Virus record (IMG/VR): IMGVR_UViG_3300029263_000681
Location: 1 to 22,858 of that record
Reading direction: 5' to 3' (one strand)
DNA: 22,858 nt
Origin: a virus
Below, one piece after another: positions 17,358 through 22,858 of the stretch. A program made the position numbers and the translations under genes. Numbering within the stretch: position 1 is the stretch's first letter; the number at the start of each line of letters is the position of its first letter. Under the pieces are notes generated by a model, which was not told the DNA's origin, did not search any database, and saw only the letters and a list, made by a program, of their open reading frames with translations.

Positions 17358-18068
17358 CTATTCTTCTAAACATTTTAACCAAAATACTAGTAAGTATCTA
17401 TCTCCTGATTCAACAGATAGCCCCCTATGCATATGTGTAAAGCTAGGGAATATTAGAGCGTGGCCTGTAGGTAATGGTTCAACTGTACCACGATTTAAAA
17501 ATTCAGTTCCGCCCCCTCTATAATTACCAGTATTCAAAGGGACTACCATACTTATATCAGCACTTGCATCATGATGCCAAGCGCCTTGCTTTTTATCCTT
17601 TAAATTATAATTAGCTACTTGTATGGCGCCTGCGTTAACATGCCTGTTCCAAATACTCAAAAATATAGGATTACCTATAGTATATATTGTTTGCATTAAA
17701 GATTGGAATATTTCAGGGCAATTATCTTGAAAAGTTATTTCTGGTATTTGTCTTAAGGTATCTTCATCTGGGTTAGGAACAAACCCATAAAAATCTTCTA
17801 AGCTCTTTACTTCGTCTAATAATATTTCGCAAAACTTTTCAGAAAAGAAAGGAGCCGTATAAACATCTTTAAGAGGTTCTTTTATAATTTTATGTAGATT
17901 GTTTTTTACCGGAGCTTTTTCTCCTTCTTTTTCATAAAAATCAACAATATCTGGTAATGACTCTTTTACGGCCTTAAATGTTTTATCTTGTATGTACCAG
18001 TCGCCAGGATAGGCTAACAATAGATTCTTAAGCTTGTACTCTTCTTCTTTCTTTTTTAACTGTACCAT
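17358..18068 (-). CDS. 2OG-Fe(II) oxygenase
   Basis: This 236-aa protein has the complete facial triad and co-substrate residue of 2-oxoglutarate/Fe(II) dioxygenases of the prolyl/lysyl hydroxylase group: AWHHDASAD with His165-x-Asp167, distal His214 in THMHRGL, and Arg224 in GDRYLLVFW ten residues later. GNYRGGGTEFLNRG is the typical strand between them. The N-terminal 70 residues are a charged helical extension without recognised domain. Enzymes of this group hydroxylate protein, nucleobase or small-molecule substrates. Placement inside the late structural unit, overlapping the 122-aa gene by 13 bases, suggests a virion protein or host envelope substrate, but none can be read from the sequence. 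Confidence 0.85.
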   Translation of the reverse strand: MVQLKKKEEEYKLKNLLLAYPGDWYIQDKTFKAVKESLPDIVDFYEKEGEKAPVKNNLHKIIKEPLKDVYTAPFFSEKFCEILLDEVKSLEDFYGFVPNPDEDTLRQIPEITFQDNCPEIFQSLMQTIYTIGNPIFLSIWNRHVNAGAIQVANYNLKDKKQGAWHHDASADISMVVPLNTGNYRGGGTEFLNRGTVEPLPTGHALIFPSFTHMHRGLSVESGDRYLLVFWLKCLEE

Positions 18069-18424
18069 CTTTCAATACCGTAGCCTGTAATATTTTCTGT
18101 TACGTTTATAGAAACATTTCCGTTAGTAGTGACTGTAACATTACCTAAATGAGATTGTATTTCATATCCAGTATCAAGACCTCTTTGCCCAATATCTTGC
18201 CAATAAAGGCCATCATAAACCTGTAATACTTCTAATGAGGTATTCCAGATAATACTTCCTGCTAAGAAGTTTAAAGTTCCTCTTTGTTCTGTACTTACTT
18301 GAGTGGTTTTATCTACGTCAACAGATCCAAGATTTATTTCTAGTATTCTTACTAGCCTATTAAATATTTCTGGAGACAGAGGTCCTGTTGCAACAGGTAA
18401 TTGGGTTTGTAAGATCTTACTCAT
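18056..18424 (-). CDS. Small tail/appendage-type protein (122 aa)
   Basis: The N-terminal half is helical (LSPEIFNRLVRILEINLG). The central FLAGSIIWNTSLEVLQVYDG followed by LYWQDIG resembles the short G-x-x-x-W/Y-N-x-x-x-x-x-LQ-x-YDG-x-W strand pattern seen in phage fibre and appendage proteins. The C-terminal third is Thr/Asn/Val-rich beta structure. It starts in an ATGA overlap with the tail/stabilisation gene and its end overlaps the oxygenase gene. A structural role is likely but not proven. Confidence 0.5.
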   Translation of the reverse strand: MSKILQTQLPVATGPLSPEIFNRLVRILEINLGSVDVDKTTQVSTEQRGTLNFLAGSIIWNTSLEVLQVYDGLYWQDIGQRGLDTGYEIQSHLGNVTVTTNGNVSINVTENITGYGIERWYS

Positions 18425-20280
18425 TTTCTACCGTCAGTTCTTATATCAATCCTTGTAGCTCCAATCCTCCAGCCTATAGATAAGTTAGCGTCATTTGTAG
18501 CATCATCATCTGACTCAAATCTTAGAACCATCTGTCTAGCTCTTCCTCTTACGAATGTTTGTTGAGTTGTTTCAGTTATTTTATTAGTAGAGTTTACTGT
18601 TAATGTGTCTCCAGGAAAGTTTCTTGTCTTAACAACAATATTAACGTTGCCAGAATTTGTATTCTGTAGAAACTTAAAATCAGGTATTATCTTTCTAAGG
18701 AAAGTAAACTGCTCTCCATCACCTATATCAAAGTCAGAACTTTCAATAAATACTCCAGTCATAGGAGATCCGTCGTCGTTAAACCCGTCCTCATGTTTGT
18801 ATATGTAATTTTCACTTACGGCTCTAGGGTAGTTTTCTATACCAGCGTCTAACCAAGCTGTTCTGCTTAAAGTTCCGTAGTACCAAACATTATCTCCGTA
18901 GTTGTATATAACATACCTGTCTATTTCTGTTGAACTGCTTGAACAGTAGTACCAACCAATTTCATTTTTATCCGCAATAGTAAATGCATGAATTTTAAAA
19001 GACTGTAAAAGATCAATATCACTAAAAACATAATTATGAACAGAACAGGGTAAATGTTGAACCGTTCCATTATAAATATAAAAGTTGTTGTAACTCATCC
19101 AGTAAACTCCGGAAGGAGTTGTAATGGCTGCTTTAGGCCCTACTAATCCTATACCCTCGTTTATTAGATTAACAGCAAATGTAAAAGGAGGGCCAACAAA
19201 CTGCATGCTGTATAAAGCAGTATCTGTCCATATAAGAACTTCTTGCCTTGATTTAACGGCACCAATAATTGAAGATCCAGAAGAAAGTCTTAAGGATCCT
19301 GATGTATTTGTTGTTAAAGGCTCAAACTGTAAATCATTTTCTTGATCGCTAAATGCTATAAACATAGGATCTATAACACCAGTTCTTGTTGTACCAGAAA
19401 GAGTATCTGCTCCTAATACAATAAGATGTCTGTCTTTTTCAGATGTAATAACTTGTAAAGCAACAGTAGGAACTTGATTAGCACCACTAATTCCAGAAAG
19501 AGCTACGGCTCTTGTATCTGTGCCGTTGTTCTCAGTCCACCTAAAAATACCAGCATTTCTTTGATTAATAATTAAATTTTCGCCAAAGTTGTCATGAGTC
19601 CATAAACGTAATTGATTGGTACTTGATAAGGCATTAGCTGATCCAAAAGTTCCTTCTCCCCAAAAACCAGAACTCCAACCAGTACCAGCAACGTAAACAT
19701 CAAGACCTACATTTAATTGATAAGCAGCATCTGTTGCACCTCCGCCGTTTCCACTATCACTTGAATTAGCAACAACGGCCCCTGAAGAATTTTTTGCCGT
19801 AAAAGTAAAGGTATTGGTTGTAATGGATGTTACTTGATATTCTTGGTCTAAGACAACTGCTGTAATTGCTCCACCTAAACTAGCAGAACCAGATATAGTT
19901 ACAAAGTCATTTACTACAGCTCCGTGATTATCATCGGTAGCTGTGATTATTGAGCTTCCGTTAGTAGCAGCAAATATAATACCATTAGTTGTAACAGCTC
20001 TTATTGGAGTAATGTCATTAAAGGCTTGACCTTCTTTTATATAATATTTAAAAGTAGTTCCTAGGCCAAGATACTTAGTACCTTCTAGAGCTACCCAGGA
20101 ATGCAAGGCTCTTCCCGTACCAAGGAAAGTAGATGGTGAGTTCTTAGACCATCCACCAAACTTTTCTGGTCTTCCTTTTCTAAAACGAATTAAATTGCAA
20201 TCAAACCAACCGCCCTCGTTGTCGTAGTCGGTACCTTCTCTATTTATACCTGGTTTAAATATTGCTTTTTGCAAAGGCAC
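18421..20280 (-). CDS. Tail/packaged-DNA stabilisation-type structural protein
   Basis: I place the start at GTG 20280: GAGG lies 6 bases upstream, and the resulting N-terminus, MPLQKAIFKPGINREGTDYD followed by EGGWFDCNLIRFRKGRPEKF, is the usual beginning of this large phage family. A longer reading starts at TTG 20310 inside the endolysin gene. The product is about 619 aa, beta-rich, with many Gly/Thr/Ser loops, an Ig-like or coiled insertion around 95-205, and a C-terminus GWRIGATRIDIRTDGRK typical of the same family. Relatives are annotated as tail or stabilisation proteins that seal the portal after packaging. It lies immediately after the endolysin and before the appendage-type gene. Confidence 0.65.
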   Translation of the reverse strand: MPLQKAIFKPGINREGTDYDNEGGWFDCNLIRFRKGRPEKFGGWSKNSPSTFLGTGRALHSWVALEGTKYLGLGTTFKYYIKEGQAFNDITPIRAVTTNGIIFAATNGSSIITATDDNHGAVVNDFVTISGSASLGGAITAVVLDQEYQVTSITTNTFTFTAKNSSGAVVANSSDSGNGGGATDAAYQLNVGLDVYVAGTGWSSGFWGEGTFGSANALSSTNQLRLWTHDNFGENLIINQRNAGIFRWTENNGTDTRAVALSGISGANQVPTVALQVITSEKDRHLIVLGADTLSGTTRTGVIDPMFIAFSDQENDLQFEPLTTNTSGSLRLSSGSSIIGAVKSRQEVLIWTDTALYSMQFVGPPFTFAVNLINEGIGLVGPKAAITTPSGVYWMSYNNFYIYNGTVQHLPCSVHNYVFSDIDLLQSFKIHAFTIADKNEIGWYYCSSSSTEIDRYVIYNYGDNVWYYGTLSRTAWLDAGIENYPRAVSENYIYKHEDGFNDDGSPMTGVFIESSDFDIGDGEQFTFLRKIIPDFKFLQNTNSGNVNIVVKTRNFPGDTLTVNSTNKITETTQQTFVRGRARQMVLRFESDDDATNDANLSIGWRIGATRIDIRTDGRK

Positions 20281-20281
20281 A

Positions 20282-20725
20282 TTAGACCTCGTGCCATTCT
20301 TTATTTTCAAACAATAGAGCTTCAGCTTCTCTACGTCTAATCAGACCTTCTAAGACTTTACCGCCTGCTTTATTCCAACGTTTAATCTGTTCAGGAACAT
20401 TATCCCAATCTTTATTATTAATTTTTGTAAGTAATGTACTTGACGATAAGTTTGAAGGGCCTAAATTAAATACCCATGATACTAAAGAATCAAATTGATT
20501 CTGGTTTAAATCTACAGTTACTGCACTCTTTATATAGCCCTCGTACTCTTTCATGTCTTCTTCTAGTATTTTATCTGCTTCTTGTTGAGTTACTAAGTCT
20601 CCTTCTTTAACACCAGCAGTATGACCATATCCTATAGTCCATACGCCTGCTGCGCATTTGTATGCGTTGTATTCGCAGCCTTCAAATTTTTTAATTAACG
20701 ATAAACCTTCTTGTGATATGTTCAT
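20282..20725 (-). CDS. GH24 endolysin (T4/P22-type lysozyme)
   Basis: The 147-aa enzyme has the phage lysozyme core: catalytic Glu15 in KKFEGC, Cys24 nine residues later, and Thr30 in WTIGYGH, the E-8aa-D/C-5aa-T arrangement. It also has the helix NQFDSLVSWVFNLG and the C-terminal RWNKAGGKVLEGLIRRREAE. It hydrolyses the glycan strands of peptidoglycan. There is no signal-anchor or secretory N-terminus, so it should need the upstream holin to reach the wall. Its stop and the next gene's start are separated by one base. AGGAC upstream of the ATG lies within the end of the holin gene. Confidence 0.92.
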   Translation of the reverse strand: MNISQEGLSLIKKFEGCEYNAYKCAAGVWTIGYGHTAGVKEGDLVTQQEADKILEEDMKEYEGYIKSAVTVDLNQNQFDSLVSWVFNLGPSNLSSSTLLTKINNKDWDNVPEQIKRWNKAGGKVLEGLIRRREAEALLFENKEWHEV

Positions 20726-20727
20726 AT

Positions 20728-21201
20728 TTAGTCCTGTTTGTGTGAGGCTCCGAAATAAAAAGAAATAACCGCACTAGCTAACCCACCAAGGTAACCAAGA
20801 ACTAAGTTAATAAGAGCTTCTGAGTTTTGTTCTGGTGGTTGTAGAGTTACTAAAAATATGTAACCCATAAAGCCGCCTACAATTACTATACCCATAATTC
20901 TAGCTGTCCAGTCTTTACTAAACTTACCTCTAGCATCTTGTATATCTGCTGTTTCTAAAGCAAATACATCTACCTCTAATTCTTTCATTTGTAACTCAAA
21001 GGCTTGTTCAGACTTTTTGAGTTCTAACATTTGTTCTGGAGTAGCATCAGCTAGTCCTTTTTCTATTGACTTAGAGTTATTAGGAACTCCTAATACATCG
21101 GCAATCATTTTAGTTGCCATACCTGCCATTGGACCACCAAGAGCAGTTCCTAATGTAGGAGCTACAGCACCAACTATATTCTTCAATAAATTTAACTTCA
21201 T
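20728..21201 (-). CDS. Three-segment holin (GTA_holin_3TM-like)
   Basis: The protein is 157 aa. An N-terminal Gly/Ala-rich hydrophobic stretch (about 5-38, containing LGGPMAGMATKMIADVLGVP) is followed by a charged helical middle (45-98, with ALETADIQDARGKFSKDWTA). Two clear membrane helices lie at about 102-120 and 129-150. The DIQDAR...DWTAR element just before the membrane pair is characteristic of the three-TM holins associated with gene-transfer-agent and phage release. It lies directly before the endolysin and overlaps the small membrane-protein gene by ATGA, forming a lysis cassette. Confidence 0.8.
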   Translation of the reverse strand: MKLNLLKNIVGAVAPTLGTALGGPMAGMATKMIADVLGVPNNSKSIEKGLADATPEQMLELKKSEQAFELQMKELEVDVFALETADIQDARGKFSKDWTARIMGIVIVGGFMGYIFLVTLQPPEQNSEALINLVLGYLGGLASAVISFYFGASHKQD

Positions 21202-21410
21202 AATAATATGGCTGTTAGTATTGCTATTGCTAATGCACCTATAAATCCAAACATTCCAAAGGTTGCTGTTTTTAATGTAGAATTAATGTTTTCAATTTCT
21301 TCTTTTATTTCGGCAAAGTTATTGAAAGCGGTTTTCCATCTTTCAGCGCATTGCGCCTCATGAATTTTTAAAGAGGCGTCTACTTGTGTTACTGTTTTTC
21401 TTACGGTCAT
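21198..21410 (-). CDS. Small C-terminally anchored membrane protein in the lysis cassette
   Basis: Residues 1-45 of this 70-aa protein are charged and helical (HEAQCAERW; IKEEIENINSTL), and residues 49-70 form one hydrophobic segment ending at the C-terminus (FGFIGALAIAILTAILL). That topology resembles XhlA-type or antiholin-like membrane proteins placed before phage holins. Both junctions are 4-base ATGA overlaps: upstream with the cyclase and downstream with the holin. It could modulate holin timing or be a small holin itself. The family assignment is not certain. Confidence 0.65.
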   Translation of the reverse strand: MTVRKTVTQVDASLKIHEAQCAERWKTAFNNFAEIKEEIENINSTLKTATFGMFGFIGALAIAILTAILL

Positions 21411-22858
21411 ATATTTGTATAAATTTTTAAATATTTATCTTTACCCTTTACTTTTATTGGATTTAATGATTTTAACTTAAATTTAGATTTTTGTGCAGTA
21501 TTTTCTCCAATCAGTATGTCAACACCAACCTCTTTAGTAGAAGATTCTAGTCTTGCTGCTATATTTACAGCGTCCCCAATTGCTGAAAAATCAAACCGGG
21601 TACTTGATCCCATATTGCCTATTACCGCCAGTCCTGTATTTACACCAACGCCAATAGCAATAGGATGAGACAACTCTTTATTAAGTTCTTTAATTGCTTC
21701 TTGCATTTCAATTGCAGTTTGTATTGCTTTGTCCTCATGATCTTTTAAATCCAAAGGAGCATTAAATATAGCCATACATGCATCACCTATAAATTTATCT
21801 ACCATACCTCCGTTTTTTTGGACGCATTCAACCTGAACTGTTAGTGCTTTGTTCATAATCTCGGTTACTTCTTCTGGTTCTAATTTTTCCGACAAAGAAG
21901 TAAAACCTCTAACATCTGTAAATAAAAATGTTGCTTCTTTTTTTTCACCACCAAGTTTTAATAACTCTGGATTCTCTTGCAATCTTTTAACTTGTCTTGG
22001 ATCTAAGTAATGTTCAAATTGTTTTTTTATCTGTTGACGCAATTTAAACTGCTTTCTAAAGTTAAAATAGAAGGCAATAGCTCCAGTTATGAACTGTGAG
22101 ATAAAAGTCCACGAAAAATCTATTAAAAAACCCTTCTGGATGCTAAAAACTCCTGAGAACCCCGTAGTGAATAGTAAAATTATAGCTATACTTACGCCCT
22201 TAGTTACTCCTAGATAGTTAATTACAAACCACGTCAACGATACAAAAAATGAAAAAATTAAAATTTCTAACGCTAAAGCAAAATCTGGAATGTATGGAGA
22301 GTTTTGCATAAGAATTGATTCAGATAATGCAGCTTGAATCTTATGAGGTTCTAATAATCCAATTGGAGTTGCCACTTGAGGCATAATTCCATTGGCCGTT
22401 GTCCCGATGAAAACAAATTTATTTGCAACGTCCATGTCTTTTAAATTAGTTTGCGGTGTGTCTACCCAGCTAATCCATTTACGACCAAGACTATCTGTTT
22501 TAACTGGTGGTATTCCTCTGACTGATATCTCTTGGATACCATTATCATTTGTAGTGATAATGTAAGTTTTTGCTCCTGTTAATGCTTTTAATACTTCTGT
22601 GCCAAAAGCAGGAACATATCCATCTGGAGTTTTCAATAACAAAGGTATTCTTCTAACCAGGTTGTCTATATCTACTGGAGCAGATGCAATTCCTTGAGAT
22701 GAATTTTCTTGTAGTATATTAATGTTTTGAACCACTCCTTGAGTAGGTATGCCACCAGGATTTTTTCCTTTAATAACTGTGCCTGTAGTTTTTGGGTATT
22801 GTCCGTTTGGATTTTCAAACATCGCTAATACAGAATTAGTGTAGCCTAGGGTTTGTGC
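21407..22858 (-). CDS. CHASE2-transmembrane class III nucleotidyl cyclase, 5' partial
   Basis: The frame is open to the right edge (upstream codons read AQTLGYTNSVLA before the first Met), so the N-terminus is missing. Numbering from that Met: residues 1-175 are the distal part of a CHASE2 sensor domain, with FVFIGTTANG and ATPIGLLEPHKIQAAL. Three membrane helices follow (about 182-204, 208-227, 236-255). A cyclase domain occupies 297-471. Metal ligands Asp303 (FTDVRGFTSL) and Asp347 (FIGDACMAIF), base-contacting Lys343, Ser413, and transition-state residues Asn420 and Arg424 are all present, so the enzyme should be active. Lys343 favours ATP, but Ser at 413 leaves specificity open. ATGA overlap with the next lysis-cassette gene marks it as a phage gene. 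Confidence 0.88.
   Translation of the reverse strand, partial: AQTLGYTNSVLAMFENPNGQYPKTTGTVIKGKNPGGIPTQGVVQNINILQENSSQGIASAPVDIDNLVRRIPLLLKTPDGYVPAFGTEVLKALTGAKTYIITTNDNGIQEISVRGIPPVKTDSLGRKWISWVDTPQTNLKDMDVANKFVFIGTTANGIMPQVATPIGLLEPHKIQAALSESILMQNSPYIPDFALALEILIFSFFVSLTWFVINYLGVTKGVSIAIILLFTTGFSGVFSIQKGFLIDFSWTFISQFITGAIAFYFNFRKQFKLRQQIKKQFEHYLDPRQVKRLQENPELLKLGGEKKEATFLFTDVRGFTSLSEKLEPEEVTEIMNKALTVQVECVQKNGGMVDKFIGDACMAIFNAPLDLKDHEDKAIQTAIEMQEAIKELNKELSHPIAIGVGVNTGLAVIGNMGSSTRFDFSAIGDAVNIAARLESSTKEVGVDILIGENTAQKSKFKLKSLNPIKVKGKDKYLKIYTNI

Follow-up and report, generated by a model that had tools for sequence, protein, structure and literature searches.

A stretch of viral DNA listed in IMG/VR, 22,858 bases long and with a G+C content of 37% (the whole of it is hereafter called the window), was analysed. 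A membrane-bound cyclase encoded at its right edge is, judging by its sequence, almost certainly the product of the terminal gene of a curli (T8SS) module, which serves the export of amyloid fibres, and it is probably the last, regulatory component of this phage-borne system. The module itself is already known. What is new, and unreported as far as we searched, is its consistent attachment to unrelated lysis cassettes in hundreds of marine phages, which suggests that the module and the lysis programmes are tied together.

Organization of the lysis region of the window

The following features were distinguished (evidence in brackets):

21407..22858, (-): gene of a class III cyclase of the adenylyl type with CHASE2 and 3-TM parts, its 5' end cut off by the contig end (Pfam, PHROG, alignment to full-length relatives)
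21407..21410, (-): ATGA stop/start overlap of the cyclase gene and the 70-aa gene (sequence; TCAT on the + strand)
21198..21410, (-): gene of a 70-aa protein, family c12, with one C-terminal hydrophobic stretch (ORF)
21198..21201, (-): ATGA stop/start overlap of the 70-aa gene and the holin-like gene (sequence)
20728..21201, (-): gene of a 157-aa holin-like membrane protein, phrog_1544 (PHROG; precedes GH24 in relatives)
20282..20725, (-): gene of a GH24 endolysin (PF00959, 5e-51; phrog_7 endolysin, 2e-64)
18421..20310, (-): gene of a tail/DNA-stabilisation protein (phrog_3287), the downstream genome context (PHROG)

The cyclase ORF (483 aa) is open up to the contig end and, because full-length relatives have about 580 aa, approximately 100 N-terminal residues should lie beyond it. 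Its product matched the Pfam families CHASE2 (PF05226, 2.5e-13) and Guanylate_cyc (PF00211, 3.7e-24), as well as phrog_35576 of PHROG (2.4e-107). These matches, together with the full architecture in relatives and the intact active site, bear out the sequence-only reading, in which a CHASE2/3-TM/class III cyclase gene had been recognized; the ATGA junction of this gene with a small membrane-protein gene and the endolysin next in line, both described there, are also present. As for the claim that the small gene overlaps a holin gene, the overlap stands, but the 'holin' is only holin-like: phrog_1544 is annotated in PHROG as 'unknown function', one distant relative (H46) is labelled 'holin', and the model of the 157-aa protein, showing two C-terminal helices, is of low confidence (pLDDT 59.5) and too poor for structural use. 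The 70-aa protein had no family match in Pfam or PADLOC, and its gene directly follows the cyclase gene in 17 of 80 relatives. The phrog_1544 gene and the endolysin gene are separated by 2 nt, and no terminator-like sites were found between the cyclase, 70-aa, holin-like, and endolysin genes. Contiguous, same-strand endolysin and holin(-like) genes, i.e., a phage lysis operon, thus adjoin the cyclase gene. Farther along (17358-18068, (-)), a 236-aa protein carries an HxD...H pattern resembling that of 2OG-Fe(II) oxygenases, and its gene is kept beside the tail gene in relatives.

An independent contig (L442) was found to be 99.84% identical to the window over 4411 nt, every junction included, a match that takes in the cyclase, the small protein, phrog_1544, the endolysin, and the following tail gene. 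The arrangement is therefore no assembly chimera, and the joining of phage and host DNA, named earlier as grounds for rejecting the whole reading, was ruled out. A chromosomal gene was rejected as well: the closest matches among genome contigs, L084 and L085, resemble phages and had been sorted into MAGs, and outside such phage-like contigs identity reached only ~31%. The close relatives are phage genes rather than chromosomal ones, so that the second sequence-based ground for rejecting the reading failed too. The phage-type module, whole or in part, is also present on contigs L084, L085, L086, L088, and L098 from MAGs with the labels Pelagibacter, Neomarinimicrobiota, Flavobacteriaceae, and Pirellulales; these are apparently phage contigs that ended up in bacterial bins.

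The curli module and its FecR partner

Because the contig of the window breaks off within the cyclase gene, the curli genes were seen in relatives only. The order in these relatives is small HK-like membrane protein(s), CsgF, CsgG, curlin-repeat protein, FecR, and CHASE2 cyclase, with successive upstream Pfam matches to CsgF (PF10614), CsgG (PF03783), and FecR (PF04773), and a curlin-repeat ORF filling the CsgG-FecR gap. In phages HTVC008M and Melnitz, the cyclase comes after CsgF, CsgG, curlin-type, and further genes. A record of 1,499 bases filed as 'Salmonella phage' (OR851715.1, hit H64) matches CsgG at 43% and is probably a host csgG filed as phage.

The constant partner of the cyclase is FecR, not the lysis genes. 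Within 220 distinct non-myophage loci, the distance between FecR and the cyclase was not greater than 10 nt in 185, FecR was farther away in 33, and it was missing in two. FecR-CHASE2 is an old bacterial pair; FecR-domain genes are located directly before, or flank, CHASE2 genes in Marinobacter, Nitrosomonas, Sulfuricurvum, Xanthobacteraceae, Nautiliales, Filomicrobium, and Thermodesulfovibrio. Moreover, the BiofilmReg operon of Burkholderia contains LysM-FecR and CHASE2-kinase genes, and a mutant in the response regulator lost biofilm production (PMC5192318). By analogy with this bacterial pairing, the Burkholderia operon included, the phage FecR and cyclase may be read as an imported two-protein envelope sensor with cAMP output, rather than as an iron regulator, and it is likely that they form a signalling pair. 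Such a pairing would provide a concrete role for two proteins previously read as iron and CRP-type regulators.

The small HK-like genes (L018:4311-4661, L134:2929-3491, and genes at the same position elsewhere) encode proteins of ~92-116 aa, whose single hydrophobic stretch is N-terminal. The gene(s) at this position are called 'histidine kinase' in PMC9599517; in those examined here, no kinase domain was found with Pfam or NCBIfam, and their weak PHROG matches are to holins. In 45 loci, the start of the HK-like gene overlaps the phrog_1544 stop by 1 nt, and these small genes may belong to the lysis side. Other genes were found at the module edges: in one lineage (L298, L303-L307, and L299, with PF13392 at L299:7753-8007), the cyclase is immediately followed by a gene resembling HNH endonucleases, and in L085 a sequence that reads like a DNA methyltransferase (1694-2857) is inserted between FecR and the cyclase. 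Both are putatively of the selfish type.

Linkage of the module to lysis genes

In the window-like set, a lysis gene starts within 450 nt after the cyclase gene in all 49 loci whose downstream sequence extends for 2.5 kb or more. The set gathered with CsgG, which is blind to lysis, gave a downstream lysis gene in 30 of 39 loci, and the HTVC008M-type myophage set in 0 of 60, although myophage lysis genes unrelated to the models could be missed, because these models derive from the window-like set. An obligate downstream lysis partner was rejected in view of 37 exceptions among 162 loci; those examined had lysis genes just before the module, and a recount that included the upstream side left no locus without an adjoining lysis gene. 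Among 225 determinable distinct non-myophage cyclase loci (25 further distinct loci were not callable and were left out), a lysis gene was located downstream in 189, just upstream of the module in 36, and on neither side in none, a zero that is partly post hoc, because upstream gene types were added after the exceptions had been inspected. As short contigs yield positives more easily than negatives, the fair count is that of the 47 loci with both flanks on the contig: downstream in 29, upstream in 18, and neither in none. The check proposed earlier, i.e., whether relatives lie beside lysis genes in other phages, had a positive outcome outside the myophages. The idea of a cyclase built into a lysis operon holds for the recurrent lysis link, but its primary unit is the curli/FecR module. 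Of the 13 determinable myophage loci, 12 had a lysis gene on neither side and one had it upstream; since the module is kept there without lysis adjacency, the link is not required for module function. No genes annotated as lysis genes were found in the HTVC023P and 023Pt_psg01 regions.

In the long loci used for these counts, 46% of randomly placed points had a lysis gene nearby; this overstates chance, because the module occupies the middle of each locus. In the reverse search, the module or its HK-like gene lay next to the lysis gene in 56 of 64 assessable phrog_1544 loci (four of these positives having the HK-like gene alone) and in 28 of 36 GH24 loci; related lysis genes without the module were found in 16 loci with both flanks on the contig.

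The downstream cassettes are mutually unrelated, and comprise an Rz-like spanin (phrog_739) with GH24, phrog_1544 with or without GH24, and a GTA-type 3-TM holin (PF11351) with peptidase M15. What follows these cassettes belongs to at least three genome contexts, i.e., the phrog_3287 tail gene, an apparent terminase large subunit gene, and a scaffold/capsid block (the last two named from reading the sequences). On the upstream side, the types distinguished were phrog_1544 overlapping the first gene of the module by 1 nt (L303, L305, L307), T4-type lysozyme with phrog_1544 (L318), spanin (L299), and T4-type lysozyme ~1-2 kb before the module (L241 and its kin), the lysozymes being confirmed with Pfam.

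On the cyclase tree (FastTree), lysis type changed 23 times and side three times; an earlier IQ-TREE tree, built from fewer rows, had 14 such changes of type and two of adjacency. Over 20 swaps of the lysis cassette are thus seen on the cyclase tree, and adjacency was not lost. We attach no probability to the adjacency, because related rows are not independent. What the data show is that the link was retained while lysis genes were exchanged many times, and not that it was gained many times independently.

Relatives, active site, and fold of the cyclase

The scan of IMG/VR revealed at least 597 relatives of the cyclase, the best 80 of which are 67-83% identical over nearly the full protein. 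The nucleotide search of the phage collection gave no close cultured relative of the window. Amongst named phages, homologs with 34-35% identity are encoded by Pelagibacter phage HTVC008M and Methylophilales phages (Melnitz). Their records are annotated accordingly, and a 2022 paper described the module of pelagiphages, cyclase included (PMC9599517), contrary to the earlier statement that phages are not generally known to carry such cyclases.

The metal-binding Asp pair (FTDVRG and FIGDAC) is kept in the window and in 81 of 81 rows of the window-like set, in which the substrate Lys and the transition-state Asn and Arg are invariant too (81/81), whereas the adenine-recognising Asp position is occupied by Ser or Thr; the window has K, S, N, and R. 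In the myophage set, the catalytic residues are conserved in all readable rows. In the Melnitz cyclase (L083:5545-7596), unlike in other phage copies, Ser replaces the transition-state Asn, and this enzyme may therefore be altered or inactive. The dN/dS ratio is ~0.2 in both the CHASE2 sensor and the catalytic part (~3,400 pairs). By these comparisons, the active site is intact and under purifying selection, which points to a maintained enzyme of the adenylyl type, likely producing cAMP from ATP.

The full-length layout was assessed on relatives. PF05226 covers residues 14-305 of full-length L018, the window copy being without its N-terminus, and helices 2-34, 294-341, and 349-381 in the model of the complete relative L005 (mean pLDDT 86) correspond to an N-terminal TM / extracytoplasmic CHASE2 / three TM / cytoplasmic output layout. 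The catalytic domain of this model reached target-normalised TM scores of ~0.8-0.86 with solved cyclases, and the whole-length match in the viral fold library was a COG4252 protein of an uncultured phage. The best solved relatives are bacterial adenylyl/guanylyl cyclases (E-values from 6e-50 to 1e-36), compared with only 1.5e-7 for 7r65, which we take to be a Pycsar cyclase.

Possible roles of the module

A far-reaching proposal, put forward tentatively and less likely than not, is that the curli/FecR/CHASE2-cyclase module is functionally wired to lysis, and that it provides many marine phages, late in infection, with signal-gated amyloid export and a second messenger, attached to whatever cassette is current. 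In the reading that we prefer, FecR, presumably located in the periplasm, would relay a signal from the envelope or from curlin export to the CHASE2 domain, conceivable signals being periplasmic curlin or open CsgG pores, and the cyclase would respond by making cAMP. The overlapping genes and the conserved adjacency suggest joint late transcription of the module and the lysis genes, and their late co-expression is probable; curli export and the sensor would in this case be deployed in the last phase of infection.

It is quite possible, if short of probable, that the lysis locus is a hot spot for accessory genes in which the module resides without any functional tie. Phages often place cargo genes at late loci, the same module is located elsewhere in myophages, and the yes/no state of adjacency changes only a few times on the tree, so that few independent placements have been demonstrated. 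Against this stands the persistence of the adjacency across more than 20 changes of lysis type, at least three changes of side, and at least three genome contexts, as well as junctions that, on either side, are often overlaps of 1-8 nt, the 45 cases of phrog_1544 among them.

A narrower version of the proposed wiring, in which FecR/CHASE2 lets the cyclase sense the envelope or the export of curlin and the cyclase product times the action of holin and endolysin, is rather unlikely. It agrees with the conservation of adjacency with unrelated lysis cassettes, and the regulation of lysis by CsgG/F was independently proposed for myophage Melnitz (PMC9004378). However, a search of 20 related virus records, none of them rated complete, gave no cNMP-binding protein (PF00027), the cyclase is kept in myophages without lysis adjacency, and the above 16 loci have related lysis genes but not the module.

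That cAMP acts on host transcription via CRP-like receptors, one form of the host reprogramming considered in the sequence-only reading, is improbable, at least if the host is Pelagibacter. The cAMP-CRP circuit is widespread, and the active site is of the class III adenylyl type; yet PF00027 matches occur in eight of 98 Pelagibacteraceae genomes, with a CRP-sized frame in only one. Class III cyclases were found in two of 60 Pelagibacteraceae genomes, both of the phage type: in the genome of L084 (G001), the match has phage-module length, and the other is a phage-type CHASE2 cyclase. The related contig L084 (75%) belongs to a Pelagibacter-labelled MAG, a label that is weak evidence for Pelagibacter as the host of the window phage. 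Phages of very abundant ocean bacteria would bring a sensor and a second messenger into hosts mostly without a known receptor.

The remaining suggestion, that the cyclase floods or feeds cyclic-nucleotide defence of the Pycsar kind, may practically be dismissed: the PADLOC PycC models do match the cyclase domain, but only in the shared catalytic part, the active-site residues are of the adenylyl type with the purine NxxxR present (in place of which PycC presumably has a pyrimidine-cyclase signature), 7r65 is a far poorer match than the solved adenylyl cyclases, and the neighbours are lysis and curli genes, with no effector or cNMP-binding gene in the 20 virus records.

Returning to the proposed wiring of the module to lysis, three roles have been suggested in print for phage curli, i.e., sibling capture, nutrient uptake, and lysis control. 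Since the link to lysis genes is conserved whichever genes these are, a role at or near lysis is favoured, and it is directly testable.

Comparison with known systems

CsgF and CsgG of phages were described before the pelagiphage module (PMC7029224). In the available portions of this paper, of PMC9599517, and of PMC9004378, a cyclase beside lysis genes is not presented, and the words holin, endolysin, and lysozyme are absent from PMC9599517. The pelagiphage T8SS module shares with the window's relatives the order CsgF-CsgG-curlin-FecR-cyclase, a homologous cyclase, and both podophage and myophage carriers. It differs in that HTVC008M has an extra gene between FecR and the cyclase, whereas in the window's relatives FecR is directly adjacent and the module abuts lysis genes, on either side.

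The bacterial FecR-CHASE2 pair (COG4254-COG4252) resembles the phage one in having a periplasmic FecR protein beside a CHASE2/3-TM sensor, and in its link with biofilm control. The Burkholderia operon combines LysM-FecR with histidine kinase output and a response regulator, while the phage version has cyclase output and curli genes. Finally, CyaB of P. aeruginosa (3r5g) and CyaC of S. platensis (1wc1) have the same catalytic fold and residues as the phage cyclase, which is distinguished from them by its N-terminal CHASE2 domain, its three transmembrane helices, and its being phage-borne.
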